This document shows, in pieces, positions 7,006 through 60,375 of a DNA stretch of 64,000 nt. Positions within the stretch are counted from its first letter, which is position 1, and every line of letters begins with the position of its first letter. Source of the stretch: Nitrospira sp. (GTDB taxonomy: Bacteria; Nitrospirota; Nitrospiria; Nitrospirales; Nitrospiraceae). The DNA lies in assembly GCA_035968315.1 (NCBI GenBank), contig JAVYIN010000009.1:62001-126000 (forward strand). Reading direction: 5' to 3'. The notes beneath the pieces were generated by a model. The model did no database searches, had not been told where the DNA came from, and saw only the letters and a program-made list of their open reading frames with translations. Position numbers and translations under genes: made by a program.

Positions 7006-7773
7006 TCAGGAAGAGGACCGGCCGGAAAAGGCCCGCTTAAAAACGGTCTTCAAGCCGAAGTAGGCAAACGAGTCTTTGAGATTTGAGTAGAGCCGCTTGA
7101 ATCGGCCCATCTCGGGATTCGTAACATATTCCATAGTTAGGACAATGCGCTCCTCTCCCTCTCCCAAGGGAGTCACGGCATGCCAGAGCTTATCCCCGTT
7201 GAAGATCACCATATCGCCTGGCTCGGTAATCAGTTCGAGATGCCGGGTTTCTTTTGTCGGATCGTCCTTGAATAGATCACACACGAGTTTGCACTGCGCC
7301 GACCGATCGACCAGCCCCAACAAGATCGTATAGCGCGCCCCCTTGTAGTACGACGTATCGTAGTGGAACCCGATATGATCTCCCGGCTCTGTATAGTAGT
7401 AGAGCGCGCAGGAATGCGGATCGTTGTCTGGGCAGAGCAACAGATCGGCGTGCACCAGCCGATTGAGGAAGCCGCGATAGGACGCCGACCGATAGAGATC
7501 GAGAAAGAGCGCGGACTGTTCGAGCACCGTATAGTAGCTGACGCTGCCGCCCTTTTTGTGCCCTGGGATATAGTTCCGGTTCAGACTGGGCTGCAGCCCG
7601 TGGGCCTGCGGCACCAACACCTCTTCCACAAACGACCGCGGGAGAAATTGCTTGATGACGAGAAATTCGTTTTGCGCCCAGTACGTTTTGTGCGCCTGCT
7701 CGAAATCGATCGCCGCCACCGCTTGATCGATCCTGTCACTCACGACACGCTTCTGTTCAGCTTGCATGCTCAT
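7006..7773 (-). CDS. 2-oxoglutarate/Fe(II)-dependent oxygenase family protein
   Basis: 255 aa. The facial triad is visible as H-x-D in GFHYDTSYY and a distal His in LWHAVTPL, followed by an Arg (EERIVLTMEY) that usually binds 2-oxoglutarate. The fold resembles prolyl-4-hydroxylase/phytanoyl-type enzymes. The ATG at 7773 is preceded by AGGTGAG; a second ATG lies two codons on. Substrate unknown. It lies just upstream of lolA on the same strand. Confidence 0.75.
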   Translation of the reverse strand: MSMQAEQKRVVSDRIDQAVAAIDFEQAHKTYWAQNEFLVIKQFLPRSFVEEVLVPQAHGLQPSLNRNYIPGHKKGGSVSYYTVLEQSALFLDLYRSASYRGFLNRLVHADLLLCPDNDPHSCALYYYTEPGDHIGFHYDTSYYKGARYTILLGLVDRSAQCKLVCDLFKDDPTKETRHLELITEPGDMVIFNGDKLWHAVTPLGEGEERIVLTMEYVTNPEMGRFKRLYSNLKDSFAYFGLKTVFKRAFSGRSSS

Positions 7774-13230: not shown

Positions 13231-14238
13231 TCACCCGCCGACATAGAGATACACCGTGTACCCTATATAAAGGATGGCACCAGCACTCAGCAACCAGGGT
13301 TGCCAGCGCCCGCGCACCAGAATCTGGAGCAGACAGAGCCCGGCTCCGACGACGGCCAGCACCATGGCGAGCAATGCGGACGGCGCCAGAGCCCATTCCG
13401 TGCCGATCAAGCCCACAGAAACCGGGAAGGTGCCCTGGAACACCATCGCACCAGTCACATTCCCGACCGCCAAACGGTCTTTCTTGCGATAGAGCCAGAG
13501 AAAGCTGTTGGACATCTCCGGCAACTCCGTCGCCAGCGGGGCGATGAGCAACGCCAGGACCAATGGAGAAATGGCCAGCGCCGTCGCCATGGTCTCCGCC
13601 GCCGTCACGAACAGATGGGCGCCGAGAATCAATCCACCAAGCCCTGTCCCCGCTTGCAACCCGATCATGCCATAGGACGGCGTCTGCGCCTGCTTCGCGA
13701 ACAGCAGCGGTTCGAGCGAGCCCTCGCCGCCCTCTTCATCCTCGGCGCTAAACTTGATCTTCATGTAGTAGATGTACAGGCTGATGAGGCTGGCCGCCGC
13801 GACCAGATGCACCGTGCGCGACGGCACGAACACGCAACCCAGCGCCACTATATAGCTGATACAGAAGAAGGTCAGGTCCGTCCGGACTTCGCCGTAGTTG
13901 AGGTGAAACTGCGCCGTCCGCTTGCCCGCCCGCGCATAGAGCACGAGCAGGGCCGCGAGGATCGGCAAGACCAGCGTGTTGAGCATGAAGGGCGCGCCGA
14001 GGATCGCGCCCAACCCCACCTCGGCCTCTTGGCGGCTGGTTCCGAAAAAGATGGCAATGACGGGAATCGACGTTTCCGGCAACGTCGTGCCGATCGCCGC
14101 AAAGATGCTGCCGACCGCGCCTTCGGAAATTCCCAGGCGCTTGCCCAGCCATTCAATGGCATTGGTAAACAGCCCGCACCCGCCCAGTGTGACGGCGACG
14201 GACACAATGAAAAGAAGCACGTAGAGAAGAATGGTCAC
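13231..14238 (-). CDS. Sodium/calcium exchanger-family membrane protein
   Basis: 335 aa with about ten hydrophobic segments in two inverted halves. Each half carries a CaCA-type alpha repeat: the first has EGAVGSIFAAIGTTLPETSIP, the second APLATELPEMSNSFLW. The acidic residues in these repeats are the ion ligands in the family. It probably exchanges Ca2+ (or another cation) for Na+ or H+ at the inner membrane. The GTG start overlaps the larC stop by 4 bp, so it is coupled to larC. Confidence 0.85.
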   Translation of the reverse strand: MTILLYVLLFIVSVAVTLGGCGLFTNAIEWLGKRLGISEGAVGSIFAAIGTTLPETSIPVIAIFFGTSRQEAEVGLGAILGAPFMLNTLVLPILAALLVLYARAGKRTAQFHLNYGEVRTDLTFFCISYIVALGCVFVPSRTVHLVAAASLISLYIYYMKIKFSAEDEEGGEGSLEPLLFAKQAQTPSYGMIGLQAGTGLGGLILGAHLFVTAAETMATALAISPLVLALLIAPLATELPEMSNSFLWLYRKKDRLAVGNVTGAMVFQGTFPVSVGLIGTEWALAPSALLAMVLAVVGAGLCLLQILVRGRWQPWLLSAGAILYIGYTVYLYVGG

Positions 14239-15446
14239 GCGCGTACCCGGCCTTTGCGAGTGCTCACCTGCGAGTAGGCCTGCCGCGCGTCATCCAAGAC
14301 ATCCTTGAGCGGGCGGCCGGTCCGAACGGCAATCTGTTTACAATCGGCATATTCCGGGGCCGCCTTTTCCCATCCCGCGCCGATTTCCGCGACTTTCATC
14401 TGCACCGTCCCTCCCGGCACCTTCACGGCCACAAATCGTCGAGCCAGCACCTGCCTCGCCACTTCTTGCATCCGCACCCCCAGCGCCGTCGTCTCCAAAA
14501 ACAGCACCTCCAGCACGGCATCCAGCTGATCCGGCGCGGCCAGACAACTCACCACCACGCCGGGCCGGCTGCGTTTCATGATGACCGGGGTGAGGGTGAC
14601 ATCCAACGCGCCGACGGCAAACAACTGCTCCATCACATGTTCATAGGCCTGAGGCGTCAGATCGTCCAGATTGGTTTCGATCTGCATCACCCGATCGGTG
14701 GGACGCAGGCTCGATGTGGCCTCCTCGGAGAGGAACACGCGCAAGACATTCGGCCAGCCCTCGGGATCGGCATCGCCTGCGCCACAGCCCATCTGGCTGA
14801 CCGTCATCGCCGGCATCGGCCCAAACGACGACGCCAGGGTGCGCAACAGCGCCACGCCCGTCGGAGTGGCCAGCTCGCATCGCGGCCCGTCCGAGTAGAT
14901 GGGAATGCCCTGTGCCAGCGCCGCGACCGCCGGACCGGGCACCGGCAACAGGCCATGCGCCGTCTGAATGGTTCCCGCGCCGGCATTGATCGGAGAAGAC
15001 GTGACCTGCGTCACCCCGAGCAAGTGACAACCCAACACGCCCCCCACCACATCGATGAACGAATCGATCACGCCCACTTCATGAAAATGCACATCTTTTT
15101 TGGCCACGCGATGGGCCAGCCCTTCGGCTTCGGCCAGCCGGTCGAACACGGCCCGGCTCTGTTCTTTCACCACTGGCGGCAGCGTGCTGGCTGACAGCAC
15201 CCGATGGATGCGCGCCAGTGTCAGCGGCCGATCGAACCCGCGTTTGATCACCACATTGATCTTGGTCGCGTGCAGAGCCCCGCGATGGACCTGCCGCTGC
15301 TCCAGCCGATACCCGCTCAACTTCAGCCGTTTCAGTTCCTTGGCCAATGTGGCCAATGAGAGCCCGGCATCGACCAGCGCACCAAGCACCATGTCGCCGC
15401 TCACACCGGAGAAACAATCAAAATGCAGCTGTCGTCCCAAGGCCAT
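14235..15446 (-). CDS. larC: Nickel-pincer cofactor biosynthesis protein LarC
   Basis: 403 aa. LarC inserts nickel into the pincer nucleotide cofactor of lactate racemase and relatives, using CTP. The N-terminal HFDCFSGVSGDMVLGALVDAGL and the central HFHEVGVIDSFIDVVG are family hallmarks. It is a single uninterrupted frame, unlike the Lactobacillus plantarum gene, where two parts are joined by frameshifting. larB lies 0.9 kb upstream on the same strand; no larE or larA is in the window. Confidence 0.9.
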   Translation of the reverse strand: MALGRQLHFDCFSGVSGDMVLGALVDAGLSLATLAKELKRLKLSGYRLEQRQVHRGALHATKINVVIKRGFDRPLTLARIHRVLSASTLPPVVKEQSRAVFDRLAEAEGLAHRVAKKDVHFHEVGVIDSFIDVVGGVLGCHLLGVTQVTSSPINAGAGTIQTAHGLLPVPGPAVAALAQGIPIYSDGPRCELATPTGVALLRTLASSFGPMPAMTVSQMGCGAGDADPEGWPNVLRVFLSEEATSSLRPTDRVMQIETNLDDLTPQAYEHVMEQLFAVGALDVTLTPVIMKRSRPGVVVSCLAAPDQLDAVLEVLFLETTALGVRMQEVARQVLARRFVAVKVPGGTVQMKVAEIGAGWEKAAPEYADCKQIAVRTGRPLKDVLDDARQAYSQVSTRKGRVRA

Positions 15447-16293: not shown

Positions 16294-16354
16294 CTAGGCG
16301 AGGGGCGAGAGGCAAGGGGTATGTCTCTTGTCCTCTAGCCTCTAGCCTCAGCCC
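16294..16354. repeat. CTAGCCTCTAGCC hairpin repeat, copy 1
   Basis: Left arm 16294-16318 is rich in GAGG/GGCGAG; right arm 16332-16354 is CCTCTAGCCTCTAGCCTCAGCCC. The right arm encodes the last residues (EARG) and stop of larB on the minus strand. Copy 2 is at 20673-20787. Confidence 0.6.
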
Positions 16355-17102
16355 TCGTGCCCAGCATATTAATCCGGTGCGCCAGGCATCCGGCGCCAAA
16401 TCCATTGTCGATATTCATCACCCCGACACCGGCCGCGCAGGAATTCAGCATCGTCAAGAGCGCGGCCAGCCCGCCGAAGCTCGCGCCATAGCCTCTGCTG
16501 GTCGGCACCGCCACCACGGGGCAATCGACCAACCCGCCGACAACACTCGGCAACACCCCATCCATCCCGGCCACCACAATCGCCACACGGGCTTCGAACA
16601 GCCGATCCTTGCGCCCCAAGAGGCGATGCAGTCCAGCCACGCCCACGTCGTAGAGCGTTTCGACCCGGCTCCCCATCACCTCCGCCGTCACACGGGCCTC
16701 TTCGGCCACCGGCACATCGGCGGTGCCCGCCGTCAGGACCAGCACATGCCCCGCGCGGCGCGGGCGCGCGGCCTCGATCGACACGATGCGCGCGGCCTCA
16801 TGATACCGGGCCCGCCGGTCAAGCTTGGTGATCGCCTTGGCCACGGCCGGCTCGGCTCTCGTGGCAAGAAAGGGCCCGCCCTTCTTGATCAAGGCCCGGG
16901 CAATCGCCAGCACCTGTTTCGTGGTCTTGCCTTCGCACAACAATACTTCCGGAAAGCCCTGGCGAAGCGACCGGTGGTGGTCGAGCGAGGCAAATCCGAG
17001 GTCTTCAAACGGCATCGTCCGCAGCCGCTGCACCGCTTGGGAAACAGGCAGGCGCCCGTCCTTCACCTCGTTCAACAGCTGTGCGAGTCCTTCGGGGCTC
17101 AT
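16335..17102 (-). CDS. larB: Nickel-pincer cofactor carboxylase/hydrolase LarB
   Basis: 255 aa. LarB carboxylates and hydrolyses nicotinic acid adenine dinucleotide as the first step of the pincer cofactor. The C-terminal half is the PurE/AIR-carboxylase-like domain: VLTAGTADVPVAEEA, VVAGMDGVLPSVVGGLV and VPTSRGYGASFGG. The start overlaps gpsA by 4 bp, so it is co-translated with gpsA. The C-terminal EARG-stop is supplied by an intergenic repeat. Confidence 0.9.
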   Translation of the reverse strand: MSPEGLAQLLNEVKDGRLPVSQAVQRLRTMPFEDLGFASLDHHRSLRQGFPEVLLCEGKTTKQVLAIARALIKKGGPFLATRAEPAVAKAITKLDRRARYHEAARIVSIEAARPRRAGHVLVLTAGTADVPVAEEARVTAEVMGSRVETLYDVGVAGLHRLLGRKDRLFEARVAIVVAGMDGVLPSVVGGLVDCPVVAVPTSRGYGASFGGLAALLTMLNSCAAGVGVMNIDNGFGAGCLAHRINMLGTRAEARG

Positions 17103-18118
17103 GCCCGTCCTTTCTCCAGCTTGGCATCCCGTTCCATGAGATCGCTCACCGCCTTGCGGCAGGATTTTCCGTCGAACAGCACGGCATTGATTTCCTGGGT
17201 AATCGGCATCTCCACCCCATGACGGCGCGCGAGACCCAGCGCCGCCCGCGCCGTGCGCACCCCTTCCGCCACCGCCTGCATGCCGCCCAAAATCGTGTCG
17301 AGCCTGTCCCCCTGGCCCAGCCGCACGCCCACCGTATGATTCCGGCTGAGCGAGCCCGTGCAGGTCAAGACCAGATCGCCAACCCCGGAGAGTCCATAGA
17401 ACGTGCGCGGATCCGCCCCCATCGCGACACCCAGACGGACGATCTCCGCCAACCCTCTGGTGATCAAGGCCGCGCGCGCATTAAAACCGAGCCCCAATCC
17501 ATCGACCACTCCGGCGGCCAAGGCCATCACGTTCTTCAGCGCCCCGCCCAACTGCACGCCAATGAGGTCGCTATCCGCATAGACCCGGAATGAGGGCGTC
17601 ATCAACGCGGCCTGAAACCGCCCCACCAGCTCAGGGTCCCGGCCGGCCAGGCAGACCGCCGTCGGCTTGCCGGCACTCAACTCGCTCGCGAAACTCGGGC
17701 CGGATAAGGCCATGAGGTACCGCTCCATCGACTCCGGCAGCACCTCATCCATGACCTGGGTCATCAGCTTGGAGCTGTCCTCTTCGACGCCCTTGGTCGC
17801 ACTGATGAAGGGAACCGGACGTGAGAGGCAGGGCGCCAGATTGCGCAGCACCTGCCGGGTGACATGCGAGGGGACCACAAAGAGAATGCCGTCAGCCTGC
17901 TCAACCGCGTCCGTCAACGACGAGGTCGCTGTCAGCGTGCGCGGCAGGGCGACACCGGGGAGAAATACCTTATTTTCATGTGCCGTATTGACGGACTCGA
18001 CCACATCATGTTCATAGGCCCAGAGGCGCACCTCCAGCCCTTTCTCGGCCAGATGTTTGGCCAGCGCCGTACCCCAGGCCCCGGCACCGATTACGCCTAG
18101 TTTTTTGACATCCTGCAT
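17099..18118 (-). CDS. gpsA: Glycerol-3-phosphate dehydrogenase [NAD(P)+]
   Basis: 339 aa, usual length. It makes sn-glycerol-3-phosphate from DHAP for phospholipid synthesis. The nucleotide-binding GVIGAGAWGTALA, the catalytic-lysine region (GGALKNVMALAAGVVDGLGLG) and GLSGVGDLVLTC are present. The start chosen (MQDVKKLGVIG) matches the family N-terminus; an upstream in-frame ATG at 18133 is possible. It is coupled to larB. Confidence 0.94.
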   Translation of the reverse strand: MQDVKKLGVIGAGAWGTALAKHLAEKGLEVRLWAYEHDVVESVNTAHENKVFLPGVALPRTLTATSSLTDAVEQADGILFVVPSHVTRQVLRNLAPCLSRPVPFISATKGVEEDSSKLMTQVMDEVLPESMERYLMALSGPSFASELSAGKPTAVCLAGRDPELVGRFQAALMTPSFRVYADSDLIGVQLGGALKNVMALAAGVVDGLGLGFNARAALITRGLAEIVRLGVAMGADPRTFYGLSGVGDLVLTCTGSLSRNHTVGVRLGQGDRLDTILGGMQAVAEGVRTARAALGLARRHGVEMPITQEINAVLFDGKSCRKAVSDLMERDAKLEKGRA

Positions 18119-18201
18119 AAAAGGAACTTCCATCCTGTGGGAGGGCAACTCATGGAACGGCGCGGATTATAGCCTGCTCCGTCCAGATCTGCCAATCGGC
18201 G

Positions 18202-18611: not shown

Positions 18612-19412
18612 TTAATCCAGTGCCAGCGTCAGACACTTCGCCGATCCGCCGGACTTCATGAACTCATCCAACGGGACCGGATGGACCTGATAGCCTCGTT
18701 CCTGGAGCAATGCCATCGTGGCCGGACAGCCCTCGGGCAGCGCGACATGCACTCCCACACAGACCGCATTACAGGCAAACTTCAGCGCCTCCGCTTCCGG
18801 AACCGCCAGCCGCCGTCCTTCATCTACCCGCTCCCTGATCGCGCTCTGTCCATAGGAGTCGAACGCCGGGGGATAATACAGCAGTTCCCCTCCCGACAAG
18901 GGGCACAAACAGGTATCGAGGTGATAGAACCGCCCGTCCACTAACTCCAGCGGAATGATCTCGCGCGCGAACCGCTCGCCCAGGAGCGGAAACATGCGAA
19001 TGTCCGACCGCTGCCGGTAGCCTCCAAACCAGTACTCGGGAAATCCCAGCAGATCTCCCGCCCCTTCGAAGAAAAACTCCTGATCGAAAGTCACAACCTC
19101 ATAGCCGGCGGCGCGAAACCACTGCTCAAAATGCGCCTCTTCCCGTTGACGTTCGGCATAGCGAAAACGGCTGACCACGGCTTGCCGCCCAACAGCCACT
19201 CCTGCATTCGCCGTAAATACGAGGTCGGGCAATCCCGGCACCGGACGCATGCGCTCCAGCACGGCCCCCATGTCCCGCTCAAGCACCTCCATGAGACGAT
19301 GCCATTGCGTAACCGCACGCTCGTGATCGACGATATTCGATCTCCGCATCCATGGATTGATTTCATACTCGATGGCAAAGTAATCCGGCGGGCACACGAG
19401 CAGGCGGCTCAC
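18612..19412 (-). CDS. Arginine dihydrolase/amidinotransferase-fold enzyme (ArgZ-like half)
   Basis: 266 aa of the guanidine-modifying superfamily. The active-site pattern is visible: the LVFTANAG loop, the acidic EGAGDLL, His in FYHLDTCLC and the nucleophilic Cys in GGSAKCLTL. In cyanobacterial ArgZ/AgrE this domain hydrolyses arginine to ornithine, CO2 and ammonia and is fused to a LOR/SDH domain. Here the LOR/SDH protein is the gene immediately upstream, overlapping by 4 bp. It could instead be a dimethylarginase; the TANA loop and partner favour arginine dihydrolase. Confidence 0.78.
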   Translation of the reverse strand: MSRLLVCPPDYFAIEYEINPWMRRSNIVDHERAVTQWHRLMEVLERDMGAVLERMRPVPGLPDLVFTANAGVAVGRQAVVSRFRYAERQREEAHFEQWFRAAGYEVVTFDQEFFFEGAGDLLGFPEYWFGGYRQRSDIRMFPLLGERFAREIIPLELVDGRFYHLDTCLCPLSGGELLYYPPAFDSYGQSAIRERVDEGRRLAVPEAEALKFACNAVCVGVHVALPEGCPATMALLQERGYQVHPVPLDEFMKSGGSAKCLTLALD

Positions 19413-20653
19413 ACAGGCCTCCCCAGAGAGCGGGCGAGTTCACTCAGGAATGACGCCGCGTCCATCACCAGCCCGACGGCCTGGAAGCTCCCCCGGTCGG
19501 CGAGCTTCGTCGGAACGGCGGCATTGATGTCCACACAGACGGTCGGCACCGCGGCGGGCAACAAATTGCCGGTGGCCACCGCATGCAGCGTCGAGGCGAC
19601 GAGCAGGGCCAGCCCAACCCCGGGGATCGCCTGGCGCATGGCGGCCTGCGCCCGCATCGAATCCGTGATCACGCCGGGCAAGGGCCCGTCATCTCTGATC
19701 GTCCCCGCCATCACCACCTGAACGCCGCGTCTGACACAAGCGGCCATGATGCCGGTCTTGATCACGCCGGACTCAACGGCAGCCCGAATGCTGCCGATCG
19801 CGCGAATCCGGTTGATGGTCCGCAGATGATGGGCATGCCCGTGCGGAACCGCCTGGCCGGCCGTGAGGGCGTAGCCTAAGGAGGTGCCGTACAGATCGGC
19901 TTCCATGTCATGCGCGGCCAAGGCATTCCCGCAGAACAACACCTGGATGAACCCTTCCTCGATCAGCCAGGCCAGCGCATCCCGCCCGCCGGCATGGATG
20001 ATGGCGGGCCCTCCGGCCAGCAGAACGTTGGAGGGGGCTCCTCCCGCACGAGACTCGTCGCGCAGCATGCGCATCCGCCGGGCAATATCGGCGATAACGT
20101 GGCTGTGCGGCCGTTCAGCGGAAACCTTCGACTCCATGAACGCAAAGACATCGCGTTCGCGCGGGCGCTGCAGCGGTCTGACGCGCACACCCGCCTGCCC
20201 GGTCACGATGAGATCGCCCTGACGGACGTCGGCCATCGGCACCGTGCGGGCCGCGGCTCGCTGGCTATCCACCGTGATGCCCAGATCCATCTCCACCCCT
20301 TGGACTTCAACCCATGTCTCGTTCAGACGGACTTCGGTCGGCAAGTGGGTGGTGGAGTAGAATTCATCCGGAAACACGCCATCGGCAGGAGCCGGCTGCA
20401 GCACGCAATCGGAATCCCGCTCGACCACCGCGCCATGCGGCTGAATCGCGCGCAGGATGTGGCTTAACGCGGTGAGCGTGGGGGCCCGCACGACAATGCG
20501 CGCGCGCGACTGGTCCTCTCTGGTGCGGCCGATCTCCACCTGGTCGAGATCGAACGACCCGCCCATCGTCAGAATCAGATCCAGCACCTTCGCGAGAATC
20601 AGCGAATCGATAATGTGGCCGCGAAGGATGATCGTTTCTTGGGCCTGAGTCAC
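19409..20653 (-). CDS. LOR/SDH-family protein (TIGR00300), probable ornithine cyclodeaminase half
   Basis: 414 aa. It matches the LOR/SDH conserved region: an N-terminal ~100-residue domain, then a Rossmann-like part with NVLLAGGPAIIHAGG, HGHAHHLRTINRIR and VICTGIM-like GVIKTGIMAA. In AgrE the C-terminal LOR/SDH part converts ornithine to proline, releasing ammonia. With the overlapping ArgZ-like gene this would give arginine to ornithine to proline plus ammonia. The start lies 20 nt downstream of an intergenic hairpin repeat. Confidence 0.82.
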   Translation of the reverse strand: MTQAQETIILRGHIIDSLILAKVLDLILTMGGSFDLDQVEIGRTREDQSRARIVVRAPTLTALSHILRAIQPHGAVVERDSDCVLQPAPADGVFPDEFYSTTHLPTEVRLNETWVEVQGVEMDLGITVDSQRAAARTVPMADVRQGDLIVTGQAGVRVRPLQRPRERDVFAFMESKVSAERPHSHVIADIARRMRMLRDESRAGGAPSNVLLAGGPAIIHAGGRDALAWLIEEGFIQVLFCGNALAAHDMEADLYGTSLGYALTAGQAVPHGHAHHLRTINRIRAIGSIRAAVESGVIKTGIMAACVRRGVQVVMAGTIRDDGPLPGVITDSMRAQAAMRQAIPGVGLALLVASTLHAVATGNLLPAAVPTVCVDINAAVPTKLADRGSFQAVGLVMDAASFLSELARSLGRPV

Positions 20654-20672: not shown

Positions 20673-20787
20673 AGGGGTCAGAGGCTAGAGGCTAGGGGGA
20701 AGCCCCGGGTGCCCCAGATCATTGCTCATGAAAATAATAGCGCGCATTCACCAAACAAGACCCTCTAGCCCCGCGCCTCTAGCCCCG
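20673..20787. repeat. CTAGCCTCTAGCC hairpin repeat, copy 2
   Basis: Left arm 20673-20699 (GGTCAGAGGCTAGAGGCTAG) and right arm 20760-20787 (CCTCTAGCCCCGCGCCTC) are near-complementary around a ~60-nt AT-richer loop. The right arm supplies the EARG end and stop codon of truD. Confidence 0.65.
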
Positions 20788-21823
20788 GGCCAGTTTTCAT
20801 GATCTCTCGCAGCACACTCGTCGCATAGGCACCTGGAGGCAAGGCAAAGGACACCGTCAGGACAGTACCGTCCAGCGACCAATCCAGTTCCGTCAAAGGC
20901 ACTCGCAGGGGCCGGCGTTCGCCGCGAAACCCGCAGACCTTCGCCGCCGCCACCAGCGCCTCCTGCGTCGCCCCCGCCTCGGTGATCACCGCCTGCTCAA
21001 TCGCGCCCGGCTCGCCGCTCGCCCAGGAGACTCTGGAACCGAATAACACTCCCGTCGGGCTGATCTCGAACCGATCGGCCCGCGCCTGCTCCACGTCCGC
21101 ATCCTCAACGAGAAAACAGGCGCCATTCTCGGACTTGGCCGCCCAGTCGCCGGCGAAGACACGATCGATCGTGTGGATACGCCGGGCCAGGATGCGATTG
21201 AAGAGATAGGACTGATAGGCATTGAGGTACCACATCCGTTTATTTCGGCTCATCCTGTCGCGCCGTTTGTCGTCCGTGAGCAAAATTGCGCCCAGCTGAT
21301 AATTGTCGCCGTCTTTCCCCTGCCGCTGAGGGCCGAAATAATTCGGCACCCCCCGCCGGCTGAGCTGGTCGAGAATGCCCGGCACCACCTCGGCCGCGTG
21401 CGGGGCAATGTCGCGAATCACCAGGCGAAACCGGTTGCCTGCATGGTGGCCGGTTCGCAGCCGATTGCGGTGCCTGCCCAGGATCTCCACCTTCAGGATC
21501 TGCTCATCGGCCGGCAGGCTCGCCATCCGGTCTGCCTGAATCCCCTGCACCGAAACCATTTGCGTCGTCACCGCCCGCGCGTCTTTCAATCCCGCAATGC
21601 CGATGGCCAGCGCCTTGACGCCCAGCACCGACGACAGCCGCTTCACCAAATCGGGAGTCGAGAGCCCGCGCTTCGTAATCCGCAGATACAGATGCTCCCC
21701 CTCGCCGCACGGCAGATACAGCGGCCGTTCGTCGACCTGAAAATCCTCCGGCGTTGTGCGCATGCGCCCGCCAATGCCGGGCAGGCTGTCAGTCAGAAAC
21801 GGCTCGATCTGTCCGGTTGTCAT
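20765..21823 (-). CDS. truD: tRNA pseudouridine(13) synthase TruD
   Basis: 352 aa from the ATG at 21823, which has AGGTGGGG upstream; codons further upstream look untranslated. It forms pseudouridine at position 13 of tRNA(Glu) and others. TTPEDFQVDE, AGLKDARAVTTQ (catalytic Asp in GLKD) and GVPNYFGPQRQG are diagnostic. The last residues (LEARG) come from the intergenic repeat. Confidence 0.93.
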   Translation of the reverse strand: MTTGQIEPFLTDSLPGIGGRMRTTPEDFQVDERPLYLPCGEGEHLYLRITKRGLSTPDLVKRLSSVLGVKALAIGIAGLKDARAVTTQMVSVQGIQADRMASLPADEQILKVEILGRHRNRLRTGHHAGNRFRLVIRDIAPHAAEVVPGILDQLSRRGVPNYFGPQRQGKDGDNYQLGAILLTDDKRRDRMSRNKRMWYLNAYQSYLFNRILARRIHTIDRVFAGDWAAKSENGACFLVEDADVEQARADRFEISPTGVLFGSRVSWASGEPGAIEQAVITEAGATQEALVAAAKVCGFRGERRPLRVPLTELDWSLDGTVLTVSFALPPGAYATSVLREIMKTGPGLEARG

Positions 21824-21866
21824 GCCCCACCTTGTTGTTGCGTCATGAGAAAAATTCGGTCCTTTC

Positions 21867-21895
21867 TTCGGCCCGTTCGATGGGCATGGTATACT
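21867..21895 (+). promoter_or_regulatory. Extended -10 promoter, leaderless type
   Basis: TGG-TATACT (extended -10; box at 21890-21895) with a weak -35 (TTCGGC, 21867-21872). The ATG at 21901 is 5 nt further; the in-frame ATGs at 21880 and 21886 lie upstream of the -10 box. Confidence 0.45.
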
Positions 21896-21900
21896 GCGCC

Positions 21901-22578
21901 ATGTTGCATCATACCAAGAGGCGGACAGACCACTCGGCCGGATATGCCCCTTCACTGAAGCACACAGCCTCCGGCCTCCTCTTCCTGCTGTGCGCGGCGC
22001 TCTCTCACGGAACATCGGCCAATGCGGCCTGGCCGGTCACACGCCCCGACGTCTACCAAGACTTTACTCAGCATATTCAGCGGCAAATTGAAACCGACAA
22101 AGCCGCCTTCGCCCTAGCCAGCACTTGTACGAACTGGTTTTACCAGCAGGAGAAGCACAAACCCGCGCCCACTGTGGTGCAGCCGATCCGTTGGGATCCG
22201 GTATCCCAGTCGCCCAGCCGCGAAGACTGCCTCCGGATCTATCCGGGCGGCCTCGAAGCAGTCCGGGAGGATTTTCACCGCACCCAGACGGCCCTCTCCG
22301 TCAGCCTGACCTTCTACGAGTTCGCCCTGGTCAGCGACCGCAACGACGATAACCGGTACAGCCGCGAGGAATTGCGCGATCTGTTCCTCTCCCTCACCCT
22401 TGCGTATGACCCCCGGCAGACACCGGGCACCCAGGCGGAGGCCCTGACCACTCGCTTCGATACCTGGTATCGCGCAAAAAACCTCGAACAACTGATGAAC
22501 AGTATGGCGCAGCTCTATGAGAAGGGCTATCGGGTCTCCGCCGCAGACCGTGCCGAACTGGAGCGCGTTTCAAAATAA
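21901..22578 (+). CDS. Secreted EF-hand-like protein
   Basis: 225 aa. A signal peptide with hydrophobic core ASGLLFLLCAALSHGTSA ends near ANAAW. The mature protein is helical and contains one canonical-looking 12-residue EF-hand loop, DRNDDNRYSREE (acidic or polar ligands at 1, 3, 5, 9 and Glu at 12), at about residue 150. Four Cys could form disulfides. No family is recognised; Ca2+ binding is inference from the loop. The promoter position decides the start. Confidence 0.65.
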   Translation: MLHHTKRRTDHSAGYAPSLKHTASGLLFLLCAALSHGTSANAAWPVTRPDVYQDFTQHIQRQIETDKAAFALASTCTNWFYQQEKHKPAPTVVQPIRWDPVSQSPSREDCLRIYPGGLEAVREDFHRTQTALSVSLTFYEFALVSDRNDDNRYSREELRDLFLSLTLAYDPRQTPGTQAEALTTRFDTWYRAKNLEQLMNSMAQLYEKGYRVSAADRAELERVSK

Positions 22579-28117: not shown

Positions 28118-29257
28118 ATGACTCCTACAACGACCACCGTCATCCGGCTCCTCCTGGCCCTGGCTTGGCTGGTCAATGCCGCCCCCGCCACGCAGGCCGC
28201 CGACAGCTCTGATACCTCATTTCGGTTCGCCCAAGAGGGCTACCGCTATGAATTTCCGCGCGACCACGGGGCCCACGAAGCCTTCCGCACAGAATGGTGG
28301 TACTACACGGGCCATCTGGAGACGGTGGAGGGCCGGCGATTCGGATTCGAGCTCACCTTTTTCCGGCGCGGCATTCCGCCGGATCAGATCCACACCCGCC
28401 CCTCACGCTGGTCGGTGGATCAATTGTATCTCGCGCATGTGGCCATTACCGATGTGTCCAAAGAACAATTCCATTTTCGTGATCGAGTCAGCCGGGGCGG
28501 ATTGGGCAAGGCAGGCGCCGACTCCGGCCACCTACGCGTCTGGCTGGACCAATGGCGCGCCGAAGCCTCTGAGCAGCCAGGTGACCAGCAGACCCTTGAG
28601 GCGCGAGCCGATGGGATGGCGCTGACTCTCACGCTGGCTCCCCTCAAACCACTCGTCATTCATGGCGAGCAGGGCATCAGCAAAAAAGGATCGGCAGAAG
28701 GCCAGGCCTCGCACTACTATTCCTTCACCCGCCTCAAGACCGCCGGCACCCTCACCCTCGGCACGCAGACCTACACAGTGACCGGCACCAGTTGGATGGA
28801 CCACGAATTCGGCTCGGCGGACCTGAGCGCGAATCTCGTCGGGTGGGATTGGTTCAGCGTGCAACTCGCCGACAACCGGGAACTGATGATCTATCGCCTG
28901 CGCCGGGCCGATGGCTCGTCCGACCCAGCCTCCAGCGGCACACTCGTCTTCCCGGATGGCCATACCCAACACCTGTCAAACTCGGACATCCAACTGACGC
29001 CTCTCGATACCTGGACCAGCCCGGCCAGCAAAGCCACCTACCCCCACCGCTGGCAAGTCTCCATTCCCTCGCTCGGGCTGTCGTTGAAACTGACCCCACT
29101 CCTAGCCGATCAGGAATTACGCACAAGCCGCAGCACGCAAGTGACGTATTGGGAAGGAGCTGTCGCGGTGGAGGGAACCGAAAAAGGCCAAACCATCAAA
29201 GGCCAGGGCTATGTGGAACTGACCGGCTATGCGGAGCGGATTGAGAAGAAGCTATAG
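28118..29257 (+). CDS. AttH/CrtC-like lipocalin-fold secreted protein
   Basis: 379 aa. A signal peptide (VIRLLLALAWLVNAAPATQA) precedes FPRDHGAHEAFRTEWWYYTGHL, the signature of the AttH/hydroxyneurosporene-synthase-like family. GTSWMDHEFGS and GWDWFSVQL are the second conserved block. CrtC hydrates carotenoids; AttH proteins (COG5621) are described as predicted secreted hydrolases but are mostly uncharacterised, so the substrate is open. A fragment of the palindromic repeat follows the stop directly. Confidence 0.85.
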   Translation: MTPTTTTVIRLLLALAWLVNAAPATQAADSSDTSFRFAQEGYRYEFPRDHGAHEAFRTEWWYYTGHLETVEGRRFGFELTFFRRGIPPDQIHTRPSRWSVDQLYLAHVAITDVSKEQFHFRDRVSRGGLGKAGADSGHLRVWLDQWRAEASEQPGDQQTLEARADGMALTLTLAPLKPLVIHGEQGISKKGSAEGQASHYYSFTRLKTAGTLTLGTQTYTVTGTSWMDHEFGSADLSANLVGWDWFSVQLADNRELMIYRLRRADGSSDPASSGTLVFPDGHTQHLSNSDIQLTPLDTWTSPASKATYPHRWQVSIPSLGLSLKLTPLLADQELRTSRSTQVTYWEGAVAVEGTEKGQTIKGQGYVELTGYAERIEKKL

Positions 29258-55282: not shown

Positions 55283-55546
55283 CTACCTGGTCCCGACCGG
55301 CCGTAACGGCGGCAACTCTTGGTCTTGCCCCACCGGGGCCAGCGGGGTGCCCTCCCCCGTCACCGGCTCCTCAATCTTTCGTTTTTGGCCTGCCGCCTCG
55401 CGCTCATGCTGTTTTTTCTGCTGAGCGATCGTCCGGGCCACTCCCACATCCTCCGGTGGAATGGGCGGACCGACAATCCCGCAGCCCATCAGCGTTCCCA
55501 GCGCAAGAAGGCCTGACAGCAGAACGATCGAACCAGCGTAGGTCAT
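55283..55546 (-). CDS. Small lipoprotein between argH and lysA
   Basis: 87 aa from the ATG at 55546, overlapping the argH stop by 4 bp. LLALGTLMGCGIVGPPIPPEDVG has a lipobox and the short Pro-rich start of LptM/YifL-type proteins, which sit before lysA in many bacteria. The mature part is charged and disordered. A YifL/LptM-like role in LPS export is inference. Confidence 0.65.
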   Translation of the reverse strand: MTYAGSIVLLSGLLALGTLMGCGIVGPPIPPEDVGVARTIAQQKKQHEREAAGQKRKIEEPVTGEGTPLAPVGQDQELPPLRPVGTR

Positions 55547-56955
55547 GCCAGCGTCTTCATCCATGCCTGAATACGGCGGGCCACCTGTTTTCGCGCGGTG
55601 CCGCCGATCTGCGCCTTTCGATCAATCGCCCCCTGCACCGTCAATCGTTGCAACACCGACGGATCGAAGCGGGGAGAAAACGGGCGCAAGTCTTCGACCG
55701 AGAGATCCGACAACTCCCGGCCCTCATCAAGCGCCCAGCGGACCACACGGCCGGTGATCGCATGGGCCTCTCTGAATGGTACTCCCTTGATCACCAAATA
55801 ATCCGCGATCTCCGTGGCCAGCATGCCGCCGCCCGTCAGCGCCCTCGTCAGCGCGTCCCGATCCACCGTCAACCGGCGCATCAACTCCGTCATGACCGCC
55901 ACGGAATCCTGCGTCGTATCGAGCGCGTCGAAGAGCGCGGGCTTGTCTTCTTGCAGATCACGGTTATAGCTGAGCGGCAAGGCCTTCAAGGTCGTCAAGA
56001 GACTCATCAGATGGCCGTACACACGGCCGGTCTTCCCGCGCACCAATTCTGGCACATCAGGATTTTTCTTCTGCGGCATCATGCTGCTGCCCGTGCAGAA
56101 CCCGTCCGGCAAGTCGACGAAATGAAACTCTTGCGTGGCCCAAATGATCAGCTCCTCGCTCATCCGCGAGAGATGCATCATGATCACGGCCAGCGCCGAC
56201 GACACTTCGATCATGAAATCCCGATCCGACACCGCATCGAGACTGTTGTGCGTTACAGCGGGGAAATCCAGCAGCGACGCCGTATAGAGCCGATCCACCG
56301 GGTAATTGGACCCGGCCAATGCGCCGGACCCCAGCGGCATGACATTCAATCGCGTGCGCGCGTCTCCAAGCCGCCCCTTGTCGCGGTCGAACATTTCGAC
56401 ATAGGCGAGCAAATGATGGGCGAATAACACCGGTTGGGCGCGCTGCAAGTGCGTATAGCCCGGCATCGGGACATCGCCATGAGCCTGCGCCTGCGCGACC
56501 AGGACCCGCTGGAATTCGGTCAACCGCCCGATGAGCCTCGCGACCTCATCCCGCAGGTATAAACGGACGTCCAAGGCGACCTGATCGTTCCGGCTCCGCC
56601 CCGTATGGAGCTTGCCGCCCAGCGGTCCGATCACTTCGGTCAGCCGCCGCTCGATCGCCATGTGAATATCTTCATCCTCCGGAAGAAACCGGAACCGGTT
56701 CTGTTCCAGCTCGCGCAGCACCGACTGCAAGCCTTTGACGATGGCCGCCGTTTCCTTCTTGGTGAGCACCCCGGCCTTTTCGAGGGTACGGCAATGGGCG
56801 AGGCTCCCTTGAATGTCGTGCGCGTACAGCCGCCGATCAACCGCCACCGAGCGCGAGAAGTCTTCGACCAGCCGGTTCGTCTGCTCGCGAAACCGGCCGG
56901 CCCACGCCTTGTTCGGCTTGCCCTTTCGGGCCCTGTCAGGTGTCCGACTGGCCAT
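55543..56955 (-). CDS. argH: Argininosuccinate lyase
   Basis: 470 aa. Final arginine step. The signature GSSMMPQKKNPDVPELVRG, HTGRSRNDQVALD and GYTHLQRAQPV are intact. Coupled to argG by a one-base overlap. Confidence 0.96.
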   Translation of the reverse strand: MASRTPDRARKGKPNKAWAGRFREQTNRLVEDFSRSVAVDRRLYAHDIQGSLAHCRTLEKAGVLTKKETAAIVKGLQSVLRELEQNRFRFLPEDEDIHMAIERRLTEVIGPLGGKLHTGRSRNDQVALDVRLYLRDEVARLIGRLTEFQRVLVAQAQAHGDVPMPGYTHLQRAQPVLFAHHLLAYVEMFDRDKGRLGDARTRLNVMPLGSGALAGSNYPVDRLYTASLLDFPAVTHNSLDAVSDRDFMIEVSSALAVIMMHLSRMSEELIIWATQEFHFVDLPDGFCTGSSMMPQKKNPDVPELVRGKTGRVYGHLMSLLTTLKALPLSYNRDLQEDKPALFDALDTTQDSVAVMTELMRRLTVDRDALTRALTGGGMLATEIADYLVIKGVPFREAHAITGRVVRWALDEGRELSDLSVEDLRPFSPRFDPSVLQRLTVQGAIDRKAQIGGTARKQVARRIQAWMKTLA

Positions 56956-58169
56956 TAGGACTTCGCTTTCCGCCTCTGCGCCCGGATCTTGAGCCGCAAC
57001 GCGTTCAACCGGATAAATCCCTCGGCGTCTTTTTGGTTATAGACGTCGTCTTCCTCAAAGGTCGCGATATCCAGCCGATACAGCGAATTCTTGGACTTGC
57101 GGCCCGCGAGCGTGCAGCTGCCCTTGTACAGCTTGACGCGCGCCGTGCCCGACACATCCTTTTGGGCTTCGTCGATCGCCGTCTGAATCATTTCCCGCTC
57201 CGGGCTGAACCAGTAGCCGTTGTAAATCAGGTCAGCGAAGCGTGGAATCAAGCTGTCGCGGAAATGCAGCACTTCGCGATCCATCGTCAACGATTCAAGC
57301 CCGCGATGCGCCACGTGCAGGATCGTCCCGCCCGGTGTTTCATAGACGCCCCGCGACTTCATCCCGACATAGCGGTTCTCGACCAGATCCACGCGGCCCA
57401 CTCCGTGCGCGCCGCCCAGTTGATTGAGATGCGCCAGCAGTTTGGCCGGGCTCATCTTCTTGCCGTCCACGGCAACCGGGTTGCCCTGCTCGTACTCGAT
57501 TTCCACTTCCAGCGGCTTGTTCGGCGCTTTCTCCGGAGACACCGTCATCTGGAAGATTTCATCCGGCGGCGACTTCCAGGGATCTTCGAGAATGCCGCCC
57601 TCGTAGCTCACGTGGAAGAGGTTCAGGTCCATGCTGTAGGGCTTCGCCTTCGTCGCCGTCACGGGAATGCCATGCTTGTCGGCATATTCGATACATTCAC
57701 GCCGCGACCGCAGGGTCCATTCGCGCCACGGGGCGATAATCTTCAGGCCGGGAGCCAGCGCCATATAGGTCAGCTCGAACCGCACCTGATCGTTGCCCTT
57801 TCCTGTGGCGCCATGCGATACCGCCTCAGCGCCTTCCTTCAGGGCGATCTCGGCCTGGCGGCGGGCAATCAGCGGACGGGCGATCGACGTCCCCAGCAAG
57901 TAGCAGCCTTCGTACATCGCGTTGCCGCGCAGCATTGGAAACACATAGTCCTTCACAAAGGTCTCGCGCAGGTCCTCGACATAGACCTTCTTCACGCCAA
58001 GATTCTTCGCTTTCGCCTTGATGGCCTGAAGATCTTCCCCCTGGCCGAGGTCGGCGCAAAAGGCGATCACTTCCGCCTGATAGGTTTCCTGCAGCCACTT
58101 CAAAATGACCGAGGTATCGAGCCCGCCGGAATACGCGAGAACTATTTTCTTGATCGATGTCTGTTTCAT
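56955..58169 (-). CDS. argG: Argininosuccinate synthase
   Basis: 404 aa. Joins citrulline and aspartate with [18 protein letters not shown] is the PPi motif; [16 protein letters not shown]-like [16 protein letters not shown] and [17 protein letters not shown] are conserved. Nine nt after argF. Confidence 0.96.
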
Positions 58170-58178
58170 GATGACCGC

Positions 58179-59156
58179 TTACGCCCTGCCTTTCTGCTGC
58201 CGCAGCAACTGAACCAAAATGGCCTTCTGCATATGGAGCCGGTTTTCCGCTTGATCGATGACGACGGACTGCGGCCCATCCAGCACCTCGGCCGTGATTT
58301 CTTCTCCGCGATGCGCCGGCAAACAATGCATCACGATGGCATCCGGCTTGGCCTTCTGGAGCAGCCGCCCGTTCAACTGATAGGGAGACAGCGCGCGCAA
58401 GCGCCGGGCTTGCTCCCGCTCGCGGCCCATGCTGATCCACACATCGGTATAGACGACATCGGCTTCTTTCACGGCAATTTGCGGATCGACGCACACCTCG
58501 ATGGCGCCGCCGGTGCGCGCGGCTTCGAGCCGGGCCCGGTCCACCACATGCTGGTCCGGTTGATAGCCGGCAGGACAGCCGAGCGCGATCTGCATCCCCA
58601 CCTTGGCGGCCGCTTCGATCAGCGAGTTCGCCACATTGTTGCCATCTCCCACATAGGCGATTTTTATTCCTTTCAGGCGCCGCTTCTGTTCCTTGATCGT
58701 CATCAAGTCCGAGAGGGCCTGGCAGGGATGGCTTAAATCGGTGAGTCCGTTGATGACGGGCATCGTGGCCTCGGCTGCCCACTCCTGCACGATGGCATGG
58801 TCATAGGTGCGAATGACGATCCCGTCGAGATAGCGCGACAACACCCGTGCCGTATCCGCCACGCTTTCTCCGCGCGACAGCTGAATTTCCGCCATTGGCA
58901 AGACCATGGCATGACCGCCCAGCTGATTCATCCCGGCTTCAAACGAGACCCGCGTCCGTGTGGAGGGCTTCTGAAAGAGCAGCCCCAGGGTCTTCCCCGC
59001 CAGCAACGAATGCGCCGTGCCGCGCTGCTGCTTGACCTTCAAGGCCGCCGCTAGGCGCAACAACTCCTCGACCTGCGTCCGTGGCATAGTCGCCACATCC
59101 AACAGATCCTTGGCATAGGCAGAGGACCGCTTCTGGGAGGGCCGCTTGGTTGCCAT
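58179..59156 (-). CDS. argF: Ornithine carbamoyltransferase
   Basis: 325 aa from the ATG at 59156. The carbamoyl-phosphate motif STRTR, HPCQ, and the ornithine-loop HCLPAHRGEEI are present. It starts 1 nt after the argD stop. Confidence 0.95.
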   Translation of the reverse strand: MATKRPSQKRSSAYAKDLLDVATMPRTQVEELLRLAAALKVKQQRGTAHSLLAGKTLGLLFQKPSTRTRVSFEAGMNQLGGHAMVLPMAEIQLSRGESVADTARVLSRYLDGIVIRTYDHAIVQEWAAEATMPVINGLTDLSHPCQALSDLMTIKEQKRRLKGIKIAYVGDGNNVANSLIEAAAKVGMQIALGCPAGYQPDQHVVDRARLEAARTGGAIEVCVDPQIAVKEADVVYTDVWISMGREREQARRLRALSPYQLNGRLLQKAKPDAIVMHCLPAHRGEEITAEVLDGPQSVVIDQAENRLHMQKAILVQLLRQQKGRA

Positions 59157-59157
59157 A

Positions 59158-60375
59158 TCAGTGATGCGCGTCCTTTTCAGCCAGCGCCCGCTGATTGAAA
59201 ATGGCCGAGAGGATCTCCAACACCCGGTCAATTTCCTGCTGGGTGATGATCAACGGCGGCACAAAGCGCAGCACCCGCTCGCTGGTCGCATTCACCAGCA
59301 CGCCCCGGGACAGGCAATCCGCGACGACGGCCTTGGCGTCGATATCCAACTCCAAACATTGCAGCAACCCGATCCCCCGCACATCCCGAACAATCCGATG
59401 GCGATCTTTGAGATCCAGCAGGCCTTTCTGAAGATATTCCCCCATGCGGCGCGCCTGATCGAGCACACGTCCTTCGAGCAGCACCCGGCACACGGCTAAT
59501 CCAGCCGCGCAGGCCAATGGATTGCCCCCGAACGTCGAAGCATGCGTCCCCGCGGTAAAGACCGCGGCCACTGAGTCCTTCGCCAAGCAGGCCCCAATGG
59601 GCATCCCGCCCCCGAGTCCCTTCGCCAAGGTCATAATGTCCGGCGCCACCCCCAATTGCTCGTATGCAAAGAGCGTCCCGGTGCGCCCCATGCCGGTCTG
59701 CACTTCATCGAAGATGAGCAGAATGTCTTTTTGCGTGCAGAATTCTCTCAGGCTCTGGAGATAGCCTTTTTCGGCGACATGTACGCCCCCTTCGCCCTGA
59801 ATCGGCTCCAGCATGATTGCCGCAGTCTTCTCGGTCACCAGGCTCTCGATCGCGGCAAAATCATTGAACGGGGCATACACAAACCCCGGCACCAGCGGCT
59901 CGAAGCCCTTTTGCACCTTCTCCTGACCGGTGGCCGTGAGGGTCGCCATGGTTCGGCCATGGAAGGAATTCTTCATGGTGATGATCTCAAAGCGGCCGGC
60001 TCCATGCTTCTCGTGGCCATAACGCCGGGCGAGCTTGATCGCCGCTTCATTGGCCTCGGCCCCGCTGTTGCAGAAAAAGACTCGGTCGGCAAAGGAATGG
60101 TCGACCAGCATCTGCGCCAGCTTCACTTGGGGCTCGGTGTAATAGAGATTCGACACATGGATGAGCTGCGCGGCCTGCCGCTGGATAGCCTGGACCAGAT
60201 CCGGGTGGCCATGGCCGAGGATATTGACCGCAATCCCACCGACACAGTCGATGTATTCCCGGCCCTCCATATCATAGACTTTGGAGCCACGGCCCCGCAC
60301 GATAGAAATCGGCTGACGCGCATAGGTTTGCATCAGGTATTTGGCGGCACCATCTTTGAGTTCTTCAGTTGGCAT
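59158..60375 (-). CDS. argD: Acetylornithine aminotransferase
   Basis: 405 aa class III PLP aminotransferase. FCNSGAEANEAAIKLAR, the PLP Asp in LIFDEVQTGMGRTG and the Lys in MTLAKGLGGGMPIGA are visible. First gene of argD-argF-argG-argH-lipoprotein, with lysA-dapA-dapB following after 148 bp. Confidence 0.93.
   Translation of the reverse strand: MPTEELKDGAAKYLMQTYARQPISIVRGRGSKVYDMEGREYIDCVGGIAVNILGHGHPDLVQAIQRQAAQLIHVSNLYYTEPQVKLAQMLVDHSFADRVFFCNSGAEANEAAIKLARRYGHEKHGAGRFEIITMKNSFHGRTMATLTATGQEKVQKGFEPLVPGFVYAPFNDFAAIESLVTEKTAAIMLEPIQGEGGVHVAEKGYLQSLREFCTQKDILLIFDEVQTGMGRTGTLFAYEQLGVAPDIMTLAKGLGGGMPIGACLAKDSVAAVFTAGTHASTFGGNPLACAAGLAVCRVLLEGRVLDQARRMGEYLQKGLLDLKDRHRIVRDVRGIGLLQCLELDIDAKAVVADCLSRGVLVNATSERVLRFVPPLIITQQEIDRVLEILSAIFNQRALAEKDAHH

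Follow-up and report, generated by a model that had tools for sequence, protein, structure and literature searches.

An overlapping ornithine cyclodeaminase and ArgZ-type dihydrolase gene pair in Nitrospira, a likely arginine-to-proline module near nickel-pincer nucleotide genes

In cyanobacteria, ArgZ (Sll1336) and AgrE (Alr4995) are bifunctional proteins that join an arginine dihydrolase (DH) and an ornithine cyclodeaminase (OCD) in one chain. The window, by which we mean the whole 64,000-nucleotide stretch of Nitrospira DNA analyzed here, encodes the same two domains, with approximately 41–48% identity between the window and cyanobacterial loci. The layout described by NF052231, one protein with DH at the N-terminus and OCD at the C-terminus, is not what we observe: there are two open reading frames, and the OCD gene comes first. 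A second described system is the nickel-pincer nucleotide (NPN), which performs hydride-transfer chemistry in LarA (PMC11770544). Another paper states that larBCE occurs in the absence of larA in approximately 15% of genomes, and that most cyanobacteria produce NPN, likely for a non-LarA protein yet to be named (PMC11796402, 2024). OCD is a candidate NPN user for such organisms, which make NPN but lack LarA. What makes the locus interesting is the cofactor question, more than the separation of the two genes.

Layout of the locus and identity of the two genes

Both genes lie on the minus strand. OCD, an ornithine cyclodeaminase of the LOR/SDH type (TIGR00300) with 414 residues and a GTG start, opens the unit (19409–20653). 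DH, an ArgZ-type arginine dihydrolase of the guanidino-modifying fold with 266 residues and a GTG start, comes second (18612–19412). Read from the sequence, the OCD stop codon (TGA, 19411–19409) and the DH start codon (GTG, 19412–19410) share the letters GTGA, a 4-bp overlap at 19409–19412. A purine-rich stretch resembling a ribosome-binding site is found about 5 nt before each start, GGGAGG for OCD and GGGGAGG for DH. An earlier note on this DNA had described two reading frames at 18612–20653 overlapping by 4 bp, and its coordinates are right, with GTGA read on the minus strand; it had taken the dihydrolase for the first gene, and the strand puts OCD first and DH second. It had also placed the pair beside the arginine synthesis genes, but argH, argG, argF and argD are located at 55543–60375, about 35 kb away.

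The order on the minus strand is truD, OCD, DH, gpsA, larB, larC, a sodium/calcium exchanger gene and pdxA. Upstream of OCD, truD (20765–22015, minus strand; PF01142, 284.3 bits) encodes a tRNA pseudouridine synthase that is probably unrelated to the pair in function. The housekeeping gene gpsA, for glycerol-3-phosphate dehydrogenase (17099–18148, minus strand; NF000942, 432.7 bits, over cut-off), sits between the pair and larB and overlaps larB by 4 bp. Two genes of NPN biosynthesis lie 2–4 kb downstream of the pair, both on the minus strand: larB (16335–17102; NF033503, 284.7 bits, cut-off 175) and larC, for nickel insertion (14235–15446; TIGR00299, 188.2 bits, cut-off 90; NF052512, 140.8 bits, cut-off 50; PF01969, 429.6). 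Elsewhere in the window, a small open reading frame resembling 2-oxoglutarate/iron oxygenases (7006–7773, minus strand) matches the halogenase D family PF23169 over cut-off (34.6 bits), and a CrtC-type lipocalin protein is encoded at 28118–29257 on the plus strand (PF07143 and PF17186, both over cut-off).

OCD scores over the equivalog cut-off of TIGR00300 (462.9 bits against 410.8, residues 7–410 of 414), and PF21570, PF04455 and PF21571, the three Pfam regions of the C-terminal part of ArgZ, all match over cut-off. Its AlphaFold model (mean pLDDT 86.0, pTM 0.75) superimposes on the Methanococcus maripaludis structure 3C2Q (Z 40.4, 2.0 Å over 327 residues) and on ArgZ 6JUY (Z 36.5). In the same model comparison, residues ~175–414 resemble deoxyhypusine synthases (Z ~17, 11–16% identity). 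As a member of this family, OCD would convert ornithine to proline. A diverged OCD (NF052526, 584 bits) was also seen in NZ_CP154629.1, an almost unannotated 2.63-Mb record labeled a plasmid that looks like a chromosome.

DH matches the crystal chains of ArgZ and AgrE with E values of 1e-69 to 1e-73. The enzyme identities given in the earlier note hold on these grounds, with OCD over the TIGR00300 cut-off and DH matching ArgZ chains at E ~1e-72. The ArgZ catalytic residues compared are all kept in DH: N69 (in TANA), N19 (INPW), E116 and D120 (FEGAGD), H164 and the nucleophile C260. DH agrees with ArgZ at all 16 positions compared, and the TANA asparagine is conserved in 85 of 85 aligned sequences, with four outgroups counted apart. 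The note had read the TANA asparagine, the histidine and the cysteine as kept, which N69, H164 and C260 bear out, and had proposed comparing the asparagine and cysteine with ArgZ structures. In that comparison, N69 and C260 correspond to the residues mutated in the ArgZ crystals 6JUZ (TANA Asn to Ser) and 6JV1 (last Cys to Ser).

The curated models are less decisive about the DH substrate. DH scores 277.3 bits against the arginine dihydrolase model NF052232 (cut-off 450) and 232.2 bits against the dimethylargininase model for DdahMtb, NF045659 (cut-off 300); it passes neither cut-off and by sequence is nearer to ArgZ than to DdahMtb. None of the 148 Nitrospirota genomes searched reaches the NF052232 cut-off, so this model may be fitted closely to the cyanobacterial enzymes. 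DH might act on another guanidino compound, such as dimethylarginine, or convert arginine to citrulline, with OCD alone acting on ornithine. The two scores below cut-off (277 of 450 and 232 of 300) would fit such an activity, as would the ArgZ-type asparagine in actinobacterial proteins called dimethylargininase: L127 and L128 have the same key Asn, Glu, His and Cys as DH, and therefore residues alone do not settle the substrate. Yet the arginine dihydrolase model outscores every DDAH model on DH, the key Asn of DH is replaced by Asp in L131, a classical DDAH, and the pairing with OCD is strict, in 36 of 36 OCD-bearing genomes. We consider such a different activity quite improbable, and arginine is the predicted substrate of DH. 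L127 and L128 themselves, both on actinobacterial plasmids, are annotated as dimethylargininase yet carry the ArgZ-type Asn residues in INPW and AN motifs.

Occurrence and history of the pair

The 148 Nitrospirota genomes were searched for OCD, DH, larB/larC, LarA and the GSU2086 family. OCD is present in 36 of them, with DH adjoining it in all 36, and nine further genomes have DH without OCD. Dropped from the counts were 19 of the 55 genomes matching PF21570 (a weak, partial match), the weak LarA matches in G017, G035 and G042, the weak DH match in G131, and GSU2086 matches under cut-off, including those in G007, G046 and G122. ArgZ-like DH genes in the absence of OCD were seen in G129 and in genomes of family f13 (L116, L123–L126). 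In the OCD-less genomes G129 and G008, no arginine-related gene was found among the DH neighbors, which include topoisomerase, GidA-like, integrase, ParA-like, GTP cyclohydrolase I and phosphatase genes.

We also fetched 80 OCD loci from public genomes. They comprise 30 OCD-DH pairs, 23 DH-OCD fusions, all from cyanobacteria, and 27 OCD genes with no DH nearby, some of these on contigs that end soon after. Besides Nitrospirota, the pair occurs in two members each of Planctomycetota and Omnitrophota and in a single Gemmatimonadota MAG, whose pair sequence (L061) groups among Nitrospirota. Fifty pairs were compared, the 30 from these loci and 20 from genome searches and stretches: OCD precedes DH in all 50, and the 4-bp overlap is exact in 36. 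The OCD-DH pair is thus ordinary in Nitrospirales, neither local nor unusual. The earlier note had called it a local shunt; it is normal in this order and occurs in other phyla. The two enzymes can exist unfused, and the two-gene form with the opposite order spans several phyla.

Trees were calculated for both proteins. For OCD, 102 rows were used with the quick method, leaving out the duplicates L001, L013 and L118–L122; for DH, 71 rows were used with the careful method, leaving out the same duplicates and 12 cyanobacterial rows. In the OCD tree the cyanobacterial fusions form one side of a branch with support 96, and in the DH tree one side of a branch with support 99/99, found in 100% of bootstrap trees; no two-gene sequence falls inside the fused group in either tree. 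The earlier note had described a split ArgZ/AgrE. The reversed gene order and the separate fused group in both the OCD and the DH tree lead us to reject fission of the fused protein as the simplest history. Both trees, being unrooted, give no direction of change. The reversed two-gene form bears on the origin of the cyanobacterial fusion.

The nickel-pincer nucleotide and its candidate users

This genome carries the NPN set larB, larC and larE. In addition to larB and larC, which score over cut-off in the window, a profile search places larE at G000:C7:392482–393252 (314.5 bits, cut-off 150). LarA, represented by PF09861 (Lar_N), has no match in this genome, and PF09861 is not among the Pfam families of OCD. 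Across Nitrospirota, larB and larC are both present in 36 of 36 genomes with OCD against 65 of 112 without it (Fisher p 1.6e-7, relatedness ignored). The gene larB lies 3.1–6.0 kb from OCD in 30 of the 36 OCD-bearing genomes, that is, in 30 of the 31 from the family to which this genome belongs; in the remaining genomes the two genes are separated by 21 kb, 31 kb or 485 kb or lie on different contigs. In families f2 and f3 larB and larC are not near OCD, and the linkage is confined to one Nitrospirota family. In loci from outside Nitrospira, a search at E values up to 1e-2 and distances of up to 10 kb gave no lar gene near OCD, on contigs many of which end sooner. Since gpsA and truD, too, are kept in the stretch that holds OCD and the lar genes, inherited gene order could explain the linkage, which weakens the inference from neighborhood. 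Genome G102, with larB and larC but no OCD, is weak as a counter-example: on the side where the pair would be expected, its contig stops ~0.4 kb from the start of gpsA.

Of 47 OCD-bearing genomes selected for diversity from the 80 loci, 37 have a larC match and 16 a LarA match over cut-off. Most of the ten genomes with no larC match are MAGs, and four of the ten have LarA, which suggests gaps in the MAGs.

A gene of the GSU2086 family (NF052581) raises the question whether OCD is the only client of NPN in this genome. This gene, at G000:C7:101952–102866 (locus L113:4435–5424, minus strand; 330 residues), overlaps a gmhA-like phosphoheptose isomerase gene, and its product may act on a sugar phosphate in this organism. 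With this gene present, we dropped OCD as the sole client; the genome has two candidate NPN users. GSU2086 and OCD are of related fold and have a Rossmann stretch in common, and GSU2086 shows weak similarity to deoxyhypusine synthase. The profile comparison between OCD and GSU2086, from which two of seven GSU2086 loci missed by the search pattern were left out, matched over 64 columns only (probability 45.6, E 2e-4), and the GSU2086 sequence gave no match to solved structures at a meaningful E value.

GSU2086 is over cut-off in 101 of the 148 Nitrospirota genomes, including this one. At least one of larB and larC is found in 97 of these 101 genomes against 11 of the 47 without GSU2086 (p 3e-20, relatedness ignored), and among OCD-less genomes in 65 of 69 with GSU2086 against 7 of 43 without. 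In G008, G054, G059 and G069, which belong to one family, GSU2086 is present but larB/larC are not over cut-off. The genomes with both larB and larC also number 101; OCD, LarA or GSU2086 is over cut-off in 96, GSU2086 alone in 58 and OCD alone in three (G055, G060 and G077). In these three, OCD is the sole candidate client among the three families tested, and G077 is a single contig. The five genomes with larB and larC in which all three families are below cut-off are G030, G031, G041 and, with fragments of GSU2086, G007 and G122. Tentatively, NPN could be the hydride carrier of OCD, and the deoxyhypusine-synthase-like fold a second, LarA-independent home of NPN that includes both OCD and GSU2086; we rate this broader proposal as possible, somewhat short of even chances. 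If it is true, OCD, GSU2086 and LarA account for nearly all larBC-bearing Nitrospirota (96/101). The co-occurrence of GSU2086 with the lar genes points to a further, uncharacterised enzyme family.

Several observations bear on the OCD cofactor. By analogy, the redox-neutral hydride loan proposed for OCD would resemble the chemistry of NPN in LarA. In NCBIfam (June 2026) TIGR00300 is titled 'ornithine cyclodeaminase, nickel-pincer nucleotide-dependent', and our literature search found no paper joining NPN with ornithine or OCD. AgrE, a relative of OCD, has been solved as a ternary complex with ornithine and NAD+ (6LRG). The earlier note had made NAD binding a criterion for the second enzyme, which may be misleading given the NPN-dependent title and the closeness of larB and larC; yet 6LRG contains NAD+. 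The same module could run on tightly bound NAD+ in OCD, with larB and larC serving GSU2086 and lying near OCD by inherited order. Such an arrangement would be consistent with 6LRG, with the fold that OCD shares with deoxyhypusine synthase (Z ~17), an enzyme solved with NAD, with a GSU2086 gene in this genome whose family tracks larB and larC, and with a lar linkage limited to one family. It sits less well with the curated title, with G055, G060 and G077, which carry larB and larC and have no LarA or GSU2086 over cut-off, and with the presence of larB and larC in every OCD-bearing Nitrospirota genome sampled. We regard NAD+ as the cofactor as rather unlikely and the use of NPN by OCD as likely.

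Proposed pathway and comparison with known systems

Based on the gene identities, the overlap, the conserved residues, the pairing, the neighborhood and the co-occurrence observed here, we suggest that the two genes form a translationally coupled arginine-to-proline module in which OCD most likely works with NPN, a reading we hold as fairly probable. In the first step, DH would convert arginine and two molecules of water to ornithine, CO2 and two molecules of ammonia. In the second, OCD would convert ornithine to proline and ammonia by a hidden redox reaction: a hydride would be taken from C-alpha, the resulting imine would cyclise and lose ammonia, and the hydride would be returned. The carrier would most likely be NPN, made by LarB, LarE and LarC, in place of NAD+. 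The route from arginine through ornithine to proline in the earlier note is supported as an inference from sequence.

The physiological role would be to free the nitrogen of arginine or to run an ornithine-ammonia cycle. Alternatively, the module may serve mainly to make proline from ornithine and not to break down arginine, a role compatible with the other explanations. OCD has a biosynthetic role in methanogens, and OCD genes with no DH nearby are frequent in archaea and in several bacterial phyla. However, proA is present in this genome (C5:1591–2769) and over cut-off in 140 of the 148 Nitrospirota genomes; proline is therefore probably also made from glutamate, which favors a role in nitrogen or arginine turnover. 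We consider proline synthesis unlikely to be the main job. Taken together, the locus holds two known enzyme families as a genuine and well-conserved pair, unfused and reversed, that likely leads from arginine to proline.

Four known systems can be compared with this pair. The LarA lactate racemase superfamily uses NPN for a hidden hydride transfer of the kind proposed for OCD, and larB, larC and larE are in this genome; OCD differs in its deoxyhypusine-synthase-like fold, and the genome has no match to LarA (PF09861). LarA was not seen among the OCD fold matches shown, which does not exclude it. Deoxyhypusine synthase has the fold of OCD residues ~175–414, with the N-terminal regions of OCD outside the match, and differs from OCD in substrate and reaction. 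The stand-alone archaeal OCDs (3C2Q; MJ1480, 3MGJ) are of the same family as the window OCD and, like it, are encoded by a one-enzyme gene, but in the archaeal loci fetched DH is not beside OCD, unlike in the window pair. Closest are ArgZ and AgrE, whose DH active site has the same Asn, Glu, Asp, His and Cys as the window DH; in the window the two enzymes are encoded by separate genes, and their order, OCD then DH, is the reverse of the ArgZ/AgrE domain order.
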